From positions 1 through 59,283 of the forward strand of contig JAMASS010000032.1 in assembly GCA_024761205.1 (NCBI GenBank): 59,283 nt of DNA, read 5' to 3'. The stretch comes from Limisphaerales bacterium (GTDB lineage: Bacteria; Verrucomicrobiota; Verrucomicrobiia; Limisphaerales; AAA164-E04). The notes below the pieces were generated by a model. It did not search any database and was not told the DNA's origin. It was given only the letters and a program-made list of their open reading frames with translations. Numbering within the stretch: position 1 is the first letter of the stretch; the number at the start of each line of letters is the position of its first letter. This document shows, piece by piece, positions 1 to 37,208 of this stretch. The translations under genes were made by a program, and so were the position numbers.

Positions 1-139
1 AGGGCAGATGCTGAGCCGAGGCGGAGGGCAGGGGGTGAATAACCGCCAGCAGGAAGCTGGCGCCGAGAGCCAAGGGACGCTTGGCGATGTTCTGAACGAG
101 GCCGGCGAGGACCGGCAGGGTCGCATGAATCGGATTCAT
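1..139 (-). CDS. N-terminus of a secreted protein, cut by window edge
   Basis: The minus strand opens with ATG at 139 and stays open to the left edge (46 codons visible). The translation begins MNPIHATLPVLAG, has a basic patch (residues 17-22), a hydrophobic stretch (about 23-35), then PSASAQ, which looks like a signal-peptidase I cleavage site. This is seen directly, so the product is probably exported. The mature part lies outside the window and cannot be identified. A GAAAG stretch just upstream of the ATG could act as a weak ribosome site, and a TAGCGT hexamer at 155-160 (minus) resembles the -10 element seen elsewhere in the window, but it has no clear -35. Confidence 0.6.
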   Translation of the reverse strand, partial: MNPIHATLPVLAGLVQNIAKRPLALGASFLLAVIHPLPSASAQHLP

Positions 140-207
140 GATCTTTCGAATTTAACGCTATCGGTTTGTGTCGTGTGAATTCCGGCACGCAAGCGCGCCG
201 GGCCGCT

Positions 208-357
208 GTTCACACTCTTAGCGGTTAAACGCAAGCAAGTTCCCGCCTGTTTGCCTGAGCATTGGGGGGAAGCTTGCAATCTTCTCCCCCGATGCATTGT
301 TTAGGCTGTTGTATTTGGCAGGCAGCCCGACTTTGAGATGCCGCTAACAGTGTGAAC
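208..357. repeat. 150-bp element with nested inverted repeats
   Basis: A 17-base arm at 208-224 (GTTCACACTCTTAGCGG) has its inverted partner at 341-357 with one mismatch. Between them lies a second hairpin: GCATTGGGGGGAAG (259-272) pairs with 281-295, with one wobble and one small bulge, around an 8-base loop. No target-site duplication is visible at the outer ends. It could be a miniature mobile element, a REP-like repeat or a structured RNA. Its function is unknown. Confidence 0.6.
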
Positions 358-1046
358 GGGAAGCACCTTGGACGAAGGGAAGGGCGTCGTCAAGGGTGAA
401 TTGCGATTTTTTTCGATTTTTTTTTCAGAGTCGAAAAGCGGGCGGCGAGGCGGTGCAAAAAGGGCCGTTCACCGTATGGGTATCGGTGGGGTATCGGTGG
501 GGTTGCCTTGGCGTCCGCGACATCCCCACGGCTTGAGGGAAAGCAGCGGCCGGAGCAGTCCCCCAAATTCTTCGAGCCAAGGGGAGATTCATGCCGCGAG
601 CCCTCGCTAGGCCGAGGAGGATGAAGAGCCTAGTCGGGATGCCTTGCACGAATCCGGGATACTGCCGCGCGTTGTGAGACGGCGGCTCAAGGGAGTCTCA
701 TCCCACCGGATCACTTTGAATCAAGCCTAAACAGTGCCGCAACCATGCTGACAGCGCAGACAGAAGTTCCCGGAGTGATCCATTCCACCTACCCGGTGAG
801 GCTGCATTGCTATGCCGTCATTGGTGACGTCATCAGTATTATTGTGGGCGACTCTGGGATGTTTCTGGGCATCGCACGATCGGCCCGACACCTTCTGGAC
901 GCCAGTGCACATGGCCATCTGTCTCGGCGGGATTCTTGGCGGCGTCACTTGTGGTTGGTTGATCATCAAAAACACTTTTCTCAATCCGCTCAAATCTCAA
1001 CGTAACGGGTCCGCCTCTGGGTCTTTCGGGGAGCTGTCTACGCCGA
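358..1046. other. No recognisable gene
   Basis: Only short overlapping frames are present, with no start and ribosome-site combination and no recognisable motif. A plus-strand frame at about 812-1072 contains a hydrophobic stretch around 905-985 that could be a relic of a membrane-protein gene, but no family is recognisable. An 11-base tandem repeat (TATCGGTGGGG, twice) lies near 480-502. Confidence 0.4.
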
Positions 1047-1075
1047 TTGACCAGTTATTTGCGCTAGGATAGCGT
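1047..1075 (+). promoter_or_regulatory. Promoter, TTGACC-N17-TAGCGT
   Basis: TTGACC at 1047-1052 is followed after exactly 17 bases by TAGCGT at 1070-1075. The same -10 hexamer occurs behind TTGAC boxes at secA and rpsT, and a close variant at carA. It points into the decayed ceramidase-like gene, so it may be a surviving promoter of a dead gene. Confidence 0.5.
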
Positions 1076-1201
1076 AGGCGACAGCTTTGCCGTGAGGGAG
1101 CCACCCACGAATCCCGAAATTGCATTCGAGAACGGTTTCAGGTTTGAGATGTGTGGCTTCCACGGTGACACTGTTGTCATGCTCAGATTCCGATATCCAT
1201 C

Positions 1202-29425: not shown

Positions 29426-30400
29426 ATGCCAGCAAAAGAGATCACTACCTATACACGCAAACTCACCAATGAACAGGGTCACCGGCTTGCTCAGATACTC
29501 GAAAAAAAAGGCTACTCATTCAGCCAGATGGCTTACGCCAAATTTGCGGCACGACACGAAAAAGTCAATGTTGTGTTCTATGAGAGCGGAAAACTCGTGG
29601 TGCAGGGAAAGGGTGCCCAAGATTTCGTTCAATTCATTCTTGAACCCGACGCGATCAAGGAGGTTCAGTTTGGTTATGAAGACCTACTGAATCCCGACCG
29701 CTTGATTCCCCGCTACGGGATCGATGAAAGCGGTAAGGGTGATTTTTTTGGTCCGCTCTGCGTTGCTGGCGTCTACGTCAACGAGTCCGTCGTCAAAACC
29801 TTTGAAGCAGCAGGCATTCAAGACTCGAAGAATATCTCCTCAGACAAACGCATCGTCGCCTTCGCCGAAATCATCACGAAAACTCCCGGTTGCGTTCACA
29901 CGACCGTTCCCATCGGTCCCGAAGCCTACAATCGCCTTCACCGGGAAATCAAATCGGTCAATCGCCTCCTCGCCTGGGGACACGCTCGGGTGATCGAAAA
30001 TCTTATGGGCCAGCGTCACCGCATGGATCCCCTGCCCAAAATCGCCATCAGCGATCAATTCGCCTCTAGCAAGACCGTCACTGAAGGGGCCATCATGGCA
30101 ATGGGGAAGGAAATCAAGCTCATCCAACGACACAAAGCAGAAGCGGATATCGCCGTGGCCGCCGCCTCCATTTTGGCGCGCTGCGAATTCGTGCGGCGTC
30201 TCCGAAAATTGGAGAAACAATACGGCCTGCCCCTCCCGAAAGGGGCCGCAAAAGCCGTTGACGCCGCCGCCAAGGAATTCCTCCAACGCCACGGTGAAGC
30301 CGAATTCGGCAAGGTCGGCAAACTCCATTTCCGCACCGCCTACCGCGCCCTGGGCCAACCCGAACCCCCGCGCGCTTATGTCAGGCAGCGCCGCTACTGA
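29426..30400 (+). CDS. rnhC: Ribonuclease HIII
   Basis: RNase HIII cuts RNA of RNA-DNA hybrids. It has 324 residues. The N-terminal substrate-binding domain (DUF3378/TBP-like) spans about 1-85. The catalytic part starts GIDESGKGDFFGP (98-110) with Asp100 and Glu101. Asp210 (AISDQFAS) and Asp241 (EADIAVAAASILAR) complete the active site. All four acidic residues are seen. RNase HIII in place of HI or HII is known in Firmicutes, Chlamydiae, Verrucomicrobia and Aquificae, and agrees with the assignment of the window. It diverges from mutY. The next gene has its own promoter. Confidence 0.95.
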   Translation: MPAKEITTYTRKLTNEQGHRLAQILEKKGYSFSQMAYAKFAARHEKVNVVFYESGKLVVQGKGAQDFVQFILEPDAIKEVQFGYEDLLNPDRLIPRYGIDESGKGDFFGPLCVAGVYVNESVVKTFEAAGIQDSKNISSDKRIVAFAEIITKTPGCVHTTVPIGPEAYNRLHREIKSVNRLLAWGHARVIENLMGQRHRMDPLPKIAISDQFASSKTVTEGAIMAMGKEIKLIQRHKAEADIAVAAASILARCEFVRRLRKLEKQYGLPLPKGAAKAVDAAAKEFLQRHGEAEFGKVGKLHFRTAYRALGQPEPPRAYVRQRRY

Positions 30401-31562: not shown

Positions 31563-32582
31563 ATGAAACCACTCCTCAAAACATCGGTCACCGCCGGACT
31601 TCTGGCGGTTGTCGTGGCGATCAGCGCTCTGTTCGCCGTTCAACAAGCCAATGGTTTCGGATACTACTATAGAATCTGGATAGGTCTCACTCCCGCCGGT
31701 AAGGCGGTCATTGCTATTGCGGGCAGTCTTGCATCAGTCATAGCCCTCGGGCGTGATTTATGGTTTGAGCGTAACCCGCCGACGGACAAAAACGGACGGG
31801 TTCTCGCCCGTCCTGATCTGGAAGGCCCTTCTGACAGCGTCCGTTATGGGTCCTGGCTTAATAGATCGGATGAAGGATCCGAAGAGCGTACGAGGTGGAT
31901 AGGTTATGCGGACTACGAATACTATATTATCGGAAAAGTGCAGGCGATGCAGACATGGGATCCGATATATGGGTGGTGGCATCCAACGGGAGCACCGACT
32001 ACAATTTCAGGGGATTCATACAAATCCTTGTCTGACCTGCAGGCCATGCGCACCGCTGACAATGATCCGTACTTGTCCAAGACGCCAGGCACCTTTATTG
32101 ATGACGCTGAATCCGAAAAGCAAACCTGCGGCGATTTTACCGTCGTCAGCGAGATTAGCGGCGGAACCTTCAAGGCTGCTGACGGGCAACTAGCGGCCGC
32201 CACCCCGCATTCCGTTTATACGGTCAGGGTGACGTTTGATCGCAAAAGAATGATCTGGGACAGTGTGAACCATCGTTGGGCTCCGCGACGTTACTTTACT
32301 TTTACTAAATCTAATAGTAGCGTTAGCGCGGTGAAAAGAGTGACCTACCCTGTTACCCTTGTAGAGGACGACACCAAGCTTAAAAAACGACCACGCGCGA
32401 GAGGCTGGAGCAACATTGTCTGGAAAAGAATAGAAGAAGACCAACCTCCGACTAAGATAACCTACCACGAAATCGTCAATGGTATGGCAACCGGAAACAC
32501 CTATGAGATGAAGAATGCAGTTAGGACAGAAGTCACATACGTTCCGATCCAAAACACAGACCGACCCAAAACACAGAATTAA
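31563..32582 (+). CDS. Unrecognised membrane-anchored protein, gene A of island pair
   Basis: This 339-residue protein matches no family that I recognise. Two hydrophobic helices near the N-terminus (about 10-29 and 43-62) leave a large, Trp/Tyr-rich domain (about 90-330) outside or inside the cell. Two short similar stretches, TWDPIYGWWHP (about 134-144) and IWDSVNHRWAP (about 223-233), suggest an internal duplication. There is a single Cys in this domain. The next gene begins 16 bases on and a strong terminator closes the pair, so they are one transcript. About 270 bases without a gene precede the ATG. It lies between a broken phage-like gene and secA, so the pair may be imported DNA. Confidence 0.6.
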   Translation: MKPLLKTSVTAGLLAVVVAISALFAVQQANGFGYYYRIWIGLTPAGKAVIAIAGSLASVIALGRDLWFERNPPTDKNGRVLARPDLEGPSDSVRYGSWLNRSDEGSEERTRWIGYADYEYYIIGKVQAMQTWDPIYGWWHPTGAPTTISGDSYKSLSDLQAMRTADNDPYLSKTPGTFIDDAESEKQTCGDFTVVSEISGGTFKAADGQLAAATPHSVYTVRVTFDRKRMIWDSVNHRWAPRRYFTFTKSNSSVSAVKRVTYPVTLVEDDTKLKKRPRARGWSNIVWKRIEEDQPPTKITYHEIVNGMATGNTYEMKNAVRTEVTYVPIQNTDRPKTQN

Positions 32583-32598: not shown

Positions 32599-33915
32599 AT
32601 GAAAGTGTCTCTCAAATTCTTCAGAAGAATCGCTGTTGGCTTGGCCGTCGGCATTGTGCTTGGCCTTCTGATCAGCGTCTGGGTCGCCCGGATATTCTTT
32701 CCGAAACCCAGCGAGGAAACGATCGCCAGAGCGAATCGGCAGTTGGAACTAGCGAAGGATTTCAATCAGGAATCGGCCTACGAGCGATTGATGGCGAAGG
32801 GCAACTTCGACGCGGCAAGGGAAGAGCAGGAACGGCTAGCCAACTGGAAGAAGAACTTCCCGTGGCAGCCCACCACCGACCCGGCGGTGCAGTTCGATCC
32901 CGAACGACATCATCCATTAGTAGGGCAACCTCGATCATGGGGGAGGAAAGGCAGAATCGTGAATAGTCGCATTGCGGAGAACAATGTCGCCCTCAAGCGG
33001 TTTTTCCAGAACGAGGCGCGGTTCACGAAGCAGTTTGAGCAGGTCTATCGCATCCTGGAGGGATACCCGGAAGAGATGAGAAGGAATCCCGCGCAAATCG
33101 GGTTCGCCTTCGAGTCTCTTTGGGAATATCAACGGGCCATGCGGCATGATCCCGATGAAGCCGCGCTGGTGCCGAATATGTTTGTAACCAAGTGGAAGGA
33201 TCCGGATACAGGCGAATTGATTACTGAAGGGCCTTTTCAGCATAAAGAGAGACCCTGGGAACCGCTGGACACGGTTTTCGGCAGACCGCTAACCTGGAGC
33301 GAGGTGGCTGATAATCACCATGAGTATATAGCCGGATACCTCCAGAGTCACGATGTTTCTTCCCTTCCCTATAAGGAAAAGATGGCGGTGACCAGGGAAA
33401 TCCGGGACCGGCTGATTGCGGAGGTGGAAGGCATGGCGGATATTCCCCAACCGGGATTCTGGGAACTTTCTCCCGAAGAGGAAGCCCTGGGTGGCTCCTA
33501 CAGCAACCTGCTGGAAGAAGGGCATCCTGAAGCGACCAAAGAAGTCCTTGTCCCGTATGTCGGCTGGGCAGAGGACCTGCAACGCTATGAGGATGGGTTT
33601 TACGCTCAGTTAGATAAAAGCATTATGGAAGGCGATCCTTCATTGAAGGCGCTGCGTCCTGAGTTTTTTCCTCCTGCGGGCATTGAAAACAACGTTCTGG
33701 TCGATAAAGACGGTGACCCGATCAAACCTTACGAGGGGATGAATGTTGTGTTCATGACGCCGGACGGGGAACGGATTCCTTTGACCACAAATGAGAACGG
33801 CAACGTCACCCTTCCGACGCCTTCCGAGATCGAGGAGATGCGCGAACTGGCGCGGCTGGCGGCGGAAGGTCAGGCTCCGCCCGACGGCGGGCAAGGGGTG
33901 AAACCGACTGAGTGA
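32599..33915 (+). CDS. Unrecognised membrane-anchored protein, gene B of island pair
   Basis: This 438-residue protein is not recognised. One N-terminal helix (about 11-32, AVGLAVGIVLGLLISVWVARI) follows a basic start (MKVSLKFFRR), so the N-terminus is probably cytoplasmic and the rest extracytoplasmic. A charged helical stretch (about 37-90) leads to a Glu- and Pro-rich domain without Cys. The C-terminus is DGGQGVKPTE. The start follows the stop of the upstream gene by 16 bases with GAGCTG near it. The coding frame is long and uninterrupted and is followed by a strong terminator, so it is a live gene. No function can be inferred. Confidence 0.6.
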   Translation: MKVSLKFFRRIAVGLAVGIVLGLLISVWVARIFFPKPSEETIARANRQLELAKDFNQESAYERLMAKGNFDAAREEQERLANWKKNFPWQPTTDPAVQFDPERHHPLVGQPRSWGRKGRIVNSRIAENNVALKRFFQNEARFTKQFEQVYRILEGYPEEMRRNPAQIGFAFESLWEYQRAMRHDPDEAALVPNMFVTKWKDPDTGELITEGPFQHKERPWEPLDTVFGRPLTWSEVADNHHEYIAGYLQSHDVSSLPYKEKMAVTREIRDRLIAEVEGMADIPQPGFWELSPEEEALGGSYSNLLEEGHPEATKEVLVPYVGWAEDLQRYEDGFYAQLDKSIMEGDPSLKALRPEFFPPAGIENNVLVDKDGDPIKPYEGMNVVFMTPDGERIPLTTNENGNVTLPTPSEIEEMRELARLAAEGQAPPDGGQGVKPTE

Positions 33916-34127: not shown

Positions 34128-37100
34128 ATGATTGGGATAACGAAGTCAGTTTTCAAAAAGGTTTTTGGCACGCGGAACGACCGTGAGATCAAGAAACTCC
34201 AGGGGCTCGTCGGGCAAATTAATGAAATCGAATCGTCCTACCAATCGCTCAGTGACGATGCTCTCCGGCAAAAGACCGCCGAGTGGAAAGCCAAACTTTC
34301 TCAAATCGAGGATGACGATGAACTCGCTCAAGAACTAGAAGCCATCCTCCCGGAAGTCTTTGCCGCTGTCAAGAATGCCTGCCGCCGCTTGTGCGGCAGG
34401 CATGTCTCGGTCAAGGGACACGACTTGCTCTGGGAAATGATTCCCTTCGATGTTCAGCTTATCGGGGGTTACGCGCTCCACTCCGGCCGCATCGCGGAAA
34501 TGGCCACCGGTGAAGGCAAGACCCTCGTCGCCACCCTGCCGGTCTATCTCAACGCGCTCACGGGCCGCAGCGTCCACATCGTCACGGTGAACGATTATCT
34601 TGCCTCTCGTGATAGCGAATGGATGGGCGCGGTCTACAAGTTTTTGGGACTGACCGTCGGTTGCATCGTCCATGACCAAGCCCCGCAGTTGCGCCGAGAG
34701 CAATATAATTGCGATGTCACTTACGGCACGAACTCAGAGTTCGGATTCGATTATCTGCGCGATAACGGCATGGCTTCGAAAAAGGAAGAGCAAGTGCAAC
34801 GACAGCACTACTTCGCCATCGTGGATGAGGTGGACTCCATTTTGATCGACGAAGCCAGGACCCCGCTCATTATCAGCGGCCCGGCGGTCGTGAACACGGA
34901 CAATCGCTACGACAAACTCAAGCCGGCGATCGAAGGTTTGGTCAGACGGCAAAAGAAACTCTGCCAAGACTATCTGAAGGAAGCCGAAGTGATTTCTAAG
35001 AAACTCCGGCCTGAAGACGATTCCAATCCCGAGAACCCCGACCTGCTGAAACAGGAGCTTGGCCTGCTTCTCTATCGGACCAAATTGGGGGCCCCCAAGT
35101 CTCCCGGGCTGCTCCGCTTTCTCGAAAATCCGGAAAATCTGAAGCTCATGACCAAGGCGGAGCTGACGCTTCACGCCGATCAAACGAAGAAGGAACTTTA
35201 CGCTCAAAAAGAAGCGCTTTTCTTTGCCATCGAGGAGAAAAGCCACGACGCCGACCTGACCGAGAAAGGCCGCGGTTTTCTCAGCCCGAAAGATCCCAAC
35301 GCATTCATGCTGCCCGACCTCACAGAGACTTATCATGAGATAGACAGCAACAATTCCCTAGATGCCAAACAACGTATAGAGGCCAAAAGTACCGCTCAGA
35401 AAGAGTTCGAAGCCAAAGCTCAACAAATCCATACGATCTCTCAGCTGCTCAAAGCGTATTGCCTTTACGAGAAAGACGTTCAATACGTGGTGCAGAACAA
35501 CGAAGTCGTGATCGTCGACGAAAATACCGGACGTCTCATGACCGGCCGTCGCTGGAGCGAAGGACTGCACCAGGCGGTTGAGGCGAAGGAAGGTGTCGAA
35601 ATCAAACGGGAAACCCAAACCTACGCGACGATCACCATCCAGAATTACTTCCGTCTCTACACCAAGTTGGCGGGAATGACTGGCACAGCCGAAACCGAAG
35701 CCAGCGAGTTTCTGGATATTTACAAGCTTGGTGTGTTAGTCATTCCGACAAATCGTCCGGTTGCCCGCAAAGACGCCCACGACACGGTCTACAAAACCAG
35801 GCGTGAGAAATACAACGCCGTTATTGACGAAATCAGAGAGATCAACGGCAAAGGCCGCCCTATTCTAGTCGGCACCATCTCTGTTGAAGTCAGTGAGTAC
35901 TTGTCCAAATTACTCAAAAAAGAACGCATCGTGCATTCGGTGTTGAACGCCAAGTATCACGAACAAGAAGCGGAAATCGTTGCTCGCGCCGGAAACAAAG
36001 ACGCCGTGACCATTGCCACGAACATGGCCGGTCGCGGAACGGATATCAAACTCGCAGACGGCGTCAACGAGCTCGGCGGGCTTCACGTCATCGGCACCGA
36101 ACGCCACGAAGCGCGCCGAATCGACCGCCAGCTTCGCGGACGTTGCGCCCGCCAAGGGGATAATGGTTCTTCCCATTTCTTTATCTCACTCGAGGACGAT
36201 CTGATGCGTCTGTTCGGTTCCGATCGCATCAGCAAGGTCATGGAAAAGGTCGGGCTCGAAGAAGGACAAGAACTCGAACACCCCTTGCTCAACCGTTCCA
36301 TTGAGACCGCGCAAAAGCGCGTCGAGCAGCATAACTTCCAGATTCGCAAACGCACGCTGGAGTACGATGACGTCATGAACAAGCAGCGCGAAATCATCTA
36401 CGGATTTCGCAACGAAATCATTCGATCCGACGACGTTCAGGACCGGTTGATGGATGTGATGGAGGATGTCGTTGTCGCCAAGGTCGAAGAATTCTCCTCA
36501 CCAGACATCGAGCCCAACGAATGGAACGTCCGGGCGTTGACCGACTGGACCAACCTCAACTTTCCGCTAAGTGTTCCCGAGGACGAGATTATCAAAGCCG
36601 CCAACGCCGGTACCGAAGATGCCGTCCCGGGCTCCATCTTTGAAGGCATGAGCCCCGCGCAAATAGCCACGGCCATTTTTATTTCCGATAGCGTCCGCAA
36701 TGCCTATAAACTCAAGATCAGTGTCGAGAGCAAAGACGCCCTGCAGAGTATCGAACGCTTCACCATTCTCAGCGCGATCGACAAATTATGGCAGGAACAC
36801 CTTTACAGTATGGACGGACTCCGGAGCAGCATCGGACTTCGCGCCTACGGCCAACGTGACCCCTTAATTGAATACAAGACCGAAGCCTTCAAGATCTTCG
36901 ATGAGTTGATGGTCAACATCAAATCCGAGATCTGTCACAACATCTTCCGTAGCGCCTCCAGCCTGATGGCGTTCCAAAGCTTCCTATCCAAACTACCCCA
37001 GCGAACCGTGCATCAGGGGGCCAATGCCTTTGGAAACAACAGCGGACAAACATCCCAGCAGCAGGCGAGCAACATCGTCAGCGAAGCCAACGAGGCCGTG

Positions 37101-37208
37101 AGTAAGACGCGGGCCACCTCCGTTCGCACCGGCCCCAAAGTTGGCCGTAATGATCCCTGCCCCTGCGGCAGCAGCAAAAAATACAAGCAATGCTGCGGCA
37201 AAGCATAA
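34128..37208 (+). CDS. secA: Preprotein translocase ATPase SecA
   Basis: SecA pushes unfolded preproteins through SecYEG using ATP. It has 1026 residues. The Walker A motif GEGKT is at 128-132, the DEVD box is in FAIVDEVDSILIDEAR (about 230-245), and TNMAGRGTDIKL (about 635-646) marks the second helicase half. The helical wing and scaffold follow. The C-terminus has the SEC-C zinc motif NDPCPCGSSKKYKQCC (about 1008-1023), which binds SecB or ribosomes. A segment of about 80 residues at 270-400 is longer than in E. coli SecA, as in several PVC-group proteins. The start has AAGGCAGG upstream. It is followed 15 bases later by a lipoprotein gene. Confidence 0.97.
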   Translation: MIGITKSVFKKVFGTRNDREIKKLQGLVGQINEIESSYQSLSDDALRQKTAEWKAKLSQIEDDDELAQELEAILPEVFAAVKNACRRLCGRHVSVKGHDLLWEMIPFDVQLIGGYALHSGRIAEMATGEGKTLVATLPVYLNALTGRSVHIVTVNDYLASRDSEWMGAVYKFLGLTVGCIVHDQAPQLRREQYNCDVTYGTNSEFGFDYLRDNGMASKKEEQVQRQHYFAIVDEVDSILIDEARTPLIISGPAVVNTDNRYDKLKPAIEGLVRRQKKLCQDYLKEAEVISKKLRPEDDSNPENPDLLKQELGLLLYRTKLGAPKSPGLLRFLENPENLKLMTKAELTLHADQTKKELYAQKEALFFAIEEKSHDADLTEKGRGFLSPKDPNAFMLPDLTETYHEIDSNNSLDAKQRIEAKSTAQKEFEAKAQQIHTISQLLKAYCLYEKDVQYVVQNNEVVIVDENTGRLMTGRRWSEGLHQAVEAKEGVEIKRETQTYATITIQNYFRLYTKLAGMTGTAETEASEFLDIYKLGVLVIPTNRPVARKDAHDTVYKTRREKYNAVIDEIREINGKGRPILVGTISVEVSEYLSKLLKKERIVHSVLNAKYHEQEAEIVARAGNKDAVTIATNMAGRGTDIKLADGVNELGGLHVIGTERHEARRIDRQLRGRCARQGDNGSSHFFISLEDDLMRLFGSDRISKVMEKVGLEEGQELEHPLLNRSIETAQKRVEQHNFQIRKRTLEYDDVMNKQREIIYGFRNEIIRSDDVQDRLMDVMEDVVVAKVEEFSSPDIEPNEWNVRALTDWTNLNFPLSVPEDEIIKAANAGTEDAVPGSIFEGMSPAQIATAIFISDSVRNAYKLKISVESKDALQSIERFTILSAIDKLWQEHLYSMDGLRSSIGLRAYGQRDPLIEYKTEAFKIFDELMVNIKSEICHNIFRSASSLMAFQSFLSKLPQRTVHQGANAFGNNSGQTSQQQASNIVSEANEAVSKTRATSVRTGPKVGRNDPCPCGSSKKYKQCCGKA

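Follow-up and report, generated by a model that had tools for sequence, protein, structure and literature searches.

Riboswitches for c-di-GMP (GEMM) are found in many copies per genome, often before genes encoding extracellular proteins. HDV-like ribozymes are H-type pseudoknot RNAs with nested hairpins and the strand order A, B, hairpin, A', B'. The use of one strand in two mutually exclusive helices is the usual anatomy of an RNA switch. Classes of orphan riboswitches and other cis-regulatory 5'-leader RNAs have been found by comparative genomics (e.g., PMC2864571, PMC6429828).

A structured RNA of about 160 nt was identified on the minus strand, from position 357 to position 197, of a contig from a Limisphaerales bacterium (Verrucomicrobiota); the window is the whole analysed stretch of this contig (59,283 nucleotides). 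No paper on such an RNA was found in the open-access PMC literature. The RNA most likely represents a new riboswitch-like class of 5' leader. The features of this copy, and of a second copy in the window, are as follows.

197 to 357, minus strand: leader RNA copy 1, whole (5' end 357, 3' end 197; covariance model R1, 143.7 bits; model R3, E 2.6e-19).
341 to 357, minus strand: P1 5' strand (inverted repeat, P1 covariation, promoter spacing); the G at 357 is the predicted transcription start.
208 to 224, minus strand: P1 3' strand (inverted repeat, covariation).
323 to 331, minus strand: pseudoknot 5' strand, GUCGGGCUG (in the family, 97.4% of cells paired and double changes at 4 pairs).
197 to 205, minus strand: pseudoknot 3' strand, CGGCCCGGC, directly outside P1 (alignment, covariation).
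317 to 322, minus strand: P2 5' strand, CCUGCC (alignment, covariation).
242 to 247, minus strand: P2 3' strand, GGCGGG (alignment, covariation).
307 to 316, minus strand: conserved internal loop, 5' side, consensus GAAUACAACA (near-invariant across the compared copies).
248 to 252, minus strand: conserved internal loop, 3' side, consensus GAAUA (near-invariant across the compared copies).
303 to 306, minus strand: P3 5' strand, GCCU (alignment, covariation).
253 to 256, minus strand: P3 3' strand, AGGC (alignment, covariation).
259 to 295, minus strand: P4 hairpin (folding, P4 covariation, palindrome statistics).
273 to 280, minus strand: P4 apical loop, AUUGCAAG, with the palindrome UUGCAA inside (palindrome statistics).
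182 to 186, minus strand: GCCGG, candidate P5 partner of the pseudoknot 3' strand (sequence, family-level co-variation).
197 to 201 with 182 to 186, minus strand: candidate P5 hairpin, CCGGC-GCGCUUGCGU-GCCGG (sequence).
388 to 393, minus strand: -35-like TTGACG (sequence, family-level promoter position).
365 to 370, minus strand: weak -10, CAAGGT (sequence, family-level promoter position).
1 to 139, minus strand: start of the downstream gene (MNPIHATLPVLAGLVQNIAKRPLALG..., signal-peptide-like), truncated by the contig edge.
31329 to 31487, plus strand: leader RNA copy 2 (covariance model, 91.0 bits).
31563 to 32582, plus strand: gene 75 nt past copy 2, encoding a 339-aa protein with a signal-peptide-like N-terminus (Pfam: none).

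The nested inverted repeats reported in a preliminary description correspond to two of these helices. The outer arms (208-224 and 341-357), complementary at 16 of 17 positions, form P1, and the P4 hairpin accounts for the inner stem (about 259-272 with 281-295). The pairing was rightly judged better than chance, as folding of positions 200-365 gave -74.7 kcal/mol on the plus strand (z -4.5) and -65.5 kcal/mol on the minus strand (z -4.3), and none of 200 dinucleotide shuffles reached the real energy on either strand. A plus-strand RNA was rejected despite its slightly better energy. The G-U pairs in the pseudoknot and P1 become A-C mismatches on the plus strand, which identifies the minus strand as the functional one, and the genes and promoters also lie on the minus strand. 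The element extends to position 197 because the pseudoknot 3' strand is located just beyond the outer arms. The region had been described as being without a gene; a minus-strand gene starts at position 139, about 57 nt past the RNA. A further inverted repeat (294-307 with 724-737) was discarded as a chance match beyond the element.

The preliminary description had proposed a search for other copies in the genome and a test for covariation. In the window's own genome (4.94 Mb, 92 contigs), DNA similarity revealed nine places: besides the copy in the window, eight more at 70-81% identity. With a covariance model (R1), about 50 copies were found, and with the final one (R3) 53 at E up to 0.01; the element is therefore not single-copy, and most of its copies were detected by the structure model and not by DNA similarity. 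By sequence reading, copy 2 in the window lies between an upstream RNase HIII-like gene (29426-30400) and a downstream secA (34128-37208). The window's contig (1-200) and a second contig (C56, L074 1-358) both open within nearly the same gene (IHATLPVLAGLVQNIAKRPLALGASFLLAVIHPLPSASAQHLP); the assembly thus breaks at such repeated genes, which may make the copy count too low. At two other loci (L011 8095-8300 and L010 8158-8380), promoter and RNA are almost identical, yet all similarity is lost ahead of the start codon, as would be expected from recombination between leaders and gene bodies.

The family architecture consists of P1, a 9-bp pseudoknot that crosses P1, P2 and P3 flanking a near-invariant internal loop, and the P4 hairpin. 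An alignment of the nine own-genome copies (A1), made with MAFFT from sequence and not fitted to any structure, reveals P2 (CCUGCC/GGCGGG), P3 (GCCU/AGGC), P4 and the pseudoknot, in which GUCGGGYYG pairs with CGGCCCGGC just outside the outer helix. In A1, 89% of the cells are paired versus 81% in shuffled and at most 48.5% in slid alignments, and changes on both sides occur at 21 pairs. In a larger alignment of 108 members (A4), the structure with the pseudoknot has 93.1% paired cells versus 71.1% shuffled and at most 45.2% slid, with 1001 doubly changed (double-compensated) cells versus 277 in shuffles, which overstate significance since the loci share descent. Because A4 was fitted to the P1-P4 structure, its counts for these helices lean that way; the pseudoknot pairs were never included in any covariance model.

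In A4, every Watson-Crick combination is freely used in P1; the pseudoknot, with 97.4% of its cells paired, shows compensatory changes at four positions, and P2 and P3 co-vary. Between phyla, hardly any change is seen in the internal loop (GAAUACAACA / GAAUA) or in a core of 28-31 nt. P4 is the variable part and is missing from some members. A local hairpin (CCCG...CGGG) ahead of the pseudoknot strand is present in many members and is not universal. The proposed covariation test thus yielded massive compensatory change among the copies, and an element without covariation is no longer tenable. The RNA fold is under selection, and the combination of a conserved aptamer-like core with covarying helices is that looked for in a riboswitch.

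Many members contain a second complement of the pseudoknot 3' strand within about 30 nt downstream (P5). A P5 helix of at least 5 bp occurs in 58 of 81 members of the GTDB set (mean helix 5.6 versus 3.3 shuffled) and is missing from part of it; in the window's own genome P5 is weak (at least 5 bp in 16 of 51; mean 4.1 versus 3.5 shuffled). Where the pseudoknot 3' strand ends in CCCGAC, the downstream sequence is GTCGG in 8 of 15 cases, two of the eight being near-identical loci, and GCCGG in none of the 15, whereas with CCCGGC it is GCCGG in 35 of 63 (Fisher p 1.4e-5, GTDB set). The pseudoknot 3' strand thus co-varies with the downstream strand too, so the pseudoknot and P5 would be mutually exclusive; by computation, this predicted alternative pairing is shared by many members. 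The Shine-Dalgarno sequence lies outside P5, and in the members read P5 is not followed by a U-tract.

Among sigma70-like promoters in the 120 nt upstream of each element, the best one ends 3-10 nt ahead of P1 in 91 of 133 elements, versus 4 in shuffles; this places the predicted start site at the conserved G with which P1 begins. The ATG usually lies 25-90 nt past the pseudoknot. With a promoter upstream and an ATG downstream, the element appears, as far as sequence can tell, to occupy the 5' UTR on the strand of the gene, as a riboswitch would. The first gene at +10 to +130 is signal-like by a crude hydrophobicity test in 74 of 100 cases, versus 203 of 686 control open reading frames, and the downstream genes usually encode signal-peptide or lipoprotein products. 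These proteins are mostly unrelated (57 of 66 in the GTDB set are singletons), which makes the RNA the common element. A Pfam scan of eight downstream proteins gave no match for most of them; the positives were one CsgG and one sub-threshold TbpB-like match. In the window's own genome, many downstream proteins share an N-terminal segment (of the MQKIHATLPALAGLVQNIAKRP... type) followed by differing mature parts.

Several further relationships were observed among the downstream genes. The second gene after several copies (window 32599-33915; L013, L016) encodes a membrane protein with a recurrent RLANWKxNFPxxxTxDPAVxFDP segment, and at L011, L015 and L010 a prepilin-like gene (FTLxELLVVIAIIGIL) takes its place; these second genes possibly belong to a multi-copy exported-protein operon family. 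The downstream lipoproteins of L148, L111, L106, L118 and L147 are related to one another, and some end in a TbpB-like beta-barrel motif (GxFxRxDLxGxFG), with a sub-threshold match of L111 to Pfam TbpB_B_D. All five are possibly surface lipoproteins.

Close relatives of the window's organism lack the element. No copy was found in the ten nearest genomes, three of them congeneric, even with deep scoring, in 292 other genomes of the order (model R1, stricter filters) or in 386 other genomes of the phylum (model R3, stricter filters). Plain DNA similarity gave no match in 39 related genomes and alone would therefore create a false picture of an element confined to one species. A degenerate core pattern detected 96 stretches in 84,980 GTDB species genomes, where about two were expected by chance on our estimate; absence elsewhere in GTDB is bounded by the exactness of this pattern. 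Among the 80 retrievable stretches, 79 match covariance model R2, two of them only partly. By record title, the carriers are Alpha- and Gammaproteobacteria, Gemmatimonadota, Acidobacteriota, Nitrospirota, Nitrospinota, Chloroflexota, Poribacteria and Binatota. About nine phylum-level groups are represented, mostly by sponge MAGs going by record name. The genome of an Entotheonella record also carries copies by R3, and a Bacteroidota record gave a weak match. In the 33 other source genomes of GTDB loci that were searched, 1-18 copies were present in every one. With the query genomes included, 4 of 369 sampled genomes were positive in the class of a gammaproteobacterial record and 16 of 148 in that of a Binatota record. 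Phages, plasmids and IMG/VR gave no match to the element.

The SB06xx, CO36xxx, OY/OX, PNGst, IP30b and SCS/MEX bins are presumably sponge-derived for the most part. The 'lac_sponge' record is of sponge origin by its own name, and the NORP17 record is probably not. The MPxx bins originate from Aplysina aerophoba (PMC5649159). The jk18x bins are Ircinia symbionts (PMC9531527), and the p16x bins probably come from the same study. Judging from their prefixes, the RHO/COS/IRC/CAR/STY/APA bins fit the sponge species of PMC8163846. The window's own organism may likewise be a sponge dweller. One element of a 'Deltaproteobacteria' MAG grouped with the Binatota class (L137 5127-5271) resembles that of a Gemmatimonadetes MAG (L124 82-225) over the element and just beyond, which would reflect either horizontal transfer or mis-binning.

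The preliminary description had offered a mobile miniature element, a REP-type repeat or a structured RNA, and the last of these has held. Many dispersed copies within one genome and a wide, patchy spread across phyla are what a mobile repeat (MITE, REP, attC-like or another dispersed element), upstream of genes by accident, would produce. Such a repeat is nevertheless largely excluded, with hardly any probability left to it: orientation and spacing to promoter and ATG are fixed, with the promoter on one side and the start codon on the other, compensatory changes occur within a pseudoknot, and the copies are divergent, those found by DNA similarity being 70-81% identical to the window copy and most needing the structure model. 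A REP or MITE identity is not supported, as the near-identical copies, free relation to genes and lack of compensatory evolution that mark them are all absent; the free variation of the outer-arm sequences between copies argues against an integron attC.

Two other explanations accept the RNA and give it another role. A constitutive structure at the 5' terminus, which without any ligand would protect, localise or present mRNAs encoding secreted proteins and whose blunt P1 helix would hinder 5'-end-dependent decay, agrees with a predicted start at the first base pair of P1, with a P1 sequence that varies freely while pairing is kept and with the enrichment of exported proteins among the following genes. 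It leaves unexplained the near-invariant internal loop, the pseudoknot sequence and the co-varying competing helix P5, and is considered less likely, though a serious rival. A trans-acting or oligomerising RNA, in which the leader is processed off or RNAs pair via palindromic P4 kissing loops, is regarded as quite improbable. It draws on the apical loops, of which 17 of 81 distinct ones contain a palindrome of at least 6 nt, versus 2.3 expected (maximum 8 in 1000 shuffles), although the P4 loop assignment is automatic and partly wrong. Several different 6-mers are involved (UUGCAA, UAGCUA, UCAUGA, UGAUCA, UAAUUA, GUGCAC), which is suggestive of kissing-loop dimers. Against a trans-acting role, other copies have non-palindromic loops (UCGCU, UUGCU, UCC) or no P4, and no terminator lies between RNA and gene in the members read.

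The preferred reading, considered moderately probable, is that the window element belongs to a new family of cis-acting 5'-leader RNAs in which the balance between pseudoknot and P5 controls a gene for a secreted or surface protein. Transcription from the adjacent sigma70-type promoter would begin with the first base pair of P1. The emerging leader would fold P1 and the pseudoknot, next P2 and P3 round the conserved internal loop, and last P4. The CGGCCCGGC strand could alternatively pair in P5, its partner lying shortly before the ribosome-binding region. Binding of a ligand (small molecule, ion or protein) at the internal loop would shift the balance between the two helices and thereby expression of the protein encoded next, probably at the level of translation or mRNA stability. 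The absence of a coherent metabolic function among the downstream genes counts against a switch, as do the weakness of P5 in the window's own genome, its absence from part of the GTDB set and its lack of overlap with the Shine-Dalgarno sequence or of a following U-tract. A wider proposal, tentative and rather doubtful, is that a single RNA sensor of a sponge signal has spread horizontally over about nine phylum-level groups, controls in each bacterium its particular set of secreted or surface proteins, homodimerises by kissing loops and has expanded in the window's species to about 50 leaders, forming an exported-protein regulon under a single RNA class.

The same structured leader before different exported proteins provides a molecular entry point to the features shared by sponge symbionts from unrelated phyla, and suggests a common genetic switch for life in sponges. 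Many poorly annotated secreted proteins are thereby flagged as likely members of one regulon. The RNA fold is new, with a P1 locked to the start site, a 9-bp pseudoknot and a competing hairpin, and its putative ligand can be searched for directly.

The computation establishes how the RNA folds, its strand, its location between a promoter and a start codon, and the bias towards secreted proteins. The element is placed as a new class within the known kind of structured cis-regulatory leaders and would work much as a riboswitch does. The 4227 families of Rfam 15 gave no match in window positions 1-1200 at E up to 5, and in five GTDB loci none matched the element at E up to 1. HEARO / IscB omega RNA is similarly a multicopy structured RNA of about 150-200 nt upstream of an open reading frame; the element differs in lacking an Rfam match and in being followed by unrelated secreted proteins instead of nucleases. 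This candidate was rejected, there being no Rfam match and no nuclease among the downstream genes read or the eight scanned proteins. HDV-like ribozymes share the strand order, whereas the element has no Rfam HDV match, a long and sequence-variable P1 and a predicted 5' end that is a transcription start and not a cleavage site. The c-di-GMP riboswitches are likewise multicopy and often located ahead of extracellular-protein genes, but have another fold and conserved sequence, and the element lacks any Rfam match. Unlike orphan riboswitches, the element has no Rfam relative, reaches 53 copies per genome, precedes genes that are alike only in secretion, starts at the first transcribed base pair and is carried mostly by organisms from one habitat. 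With these riboswitches and other leaders it nevertheless shares the predicted position in the 5' UTR, covarying helices round a conserved loop, a pseudoknot and a putative alternative pairing before the start codon.
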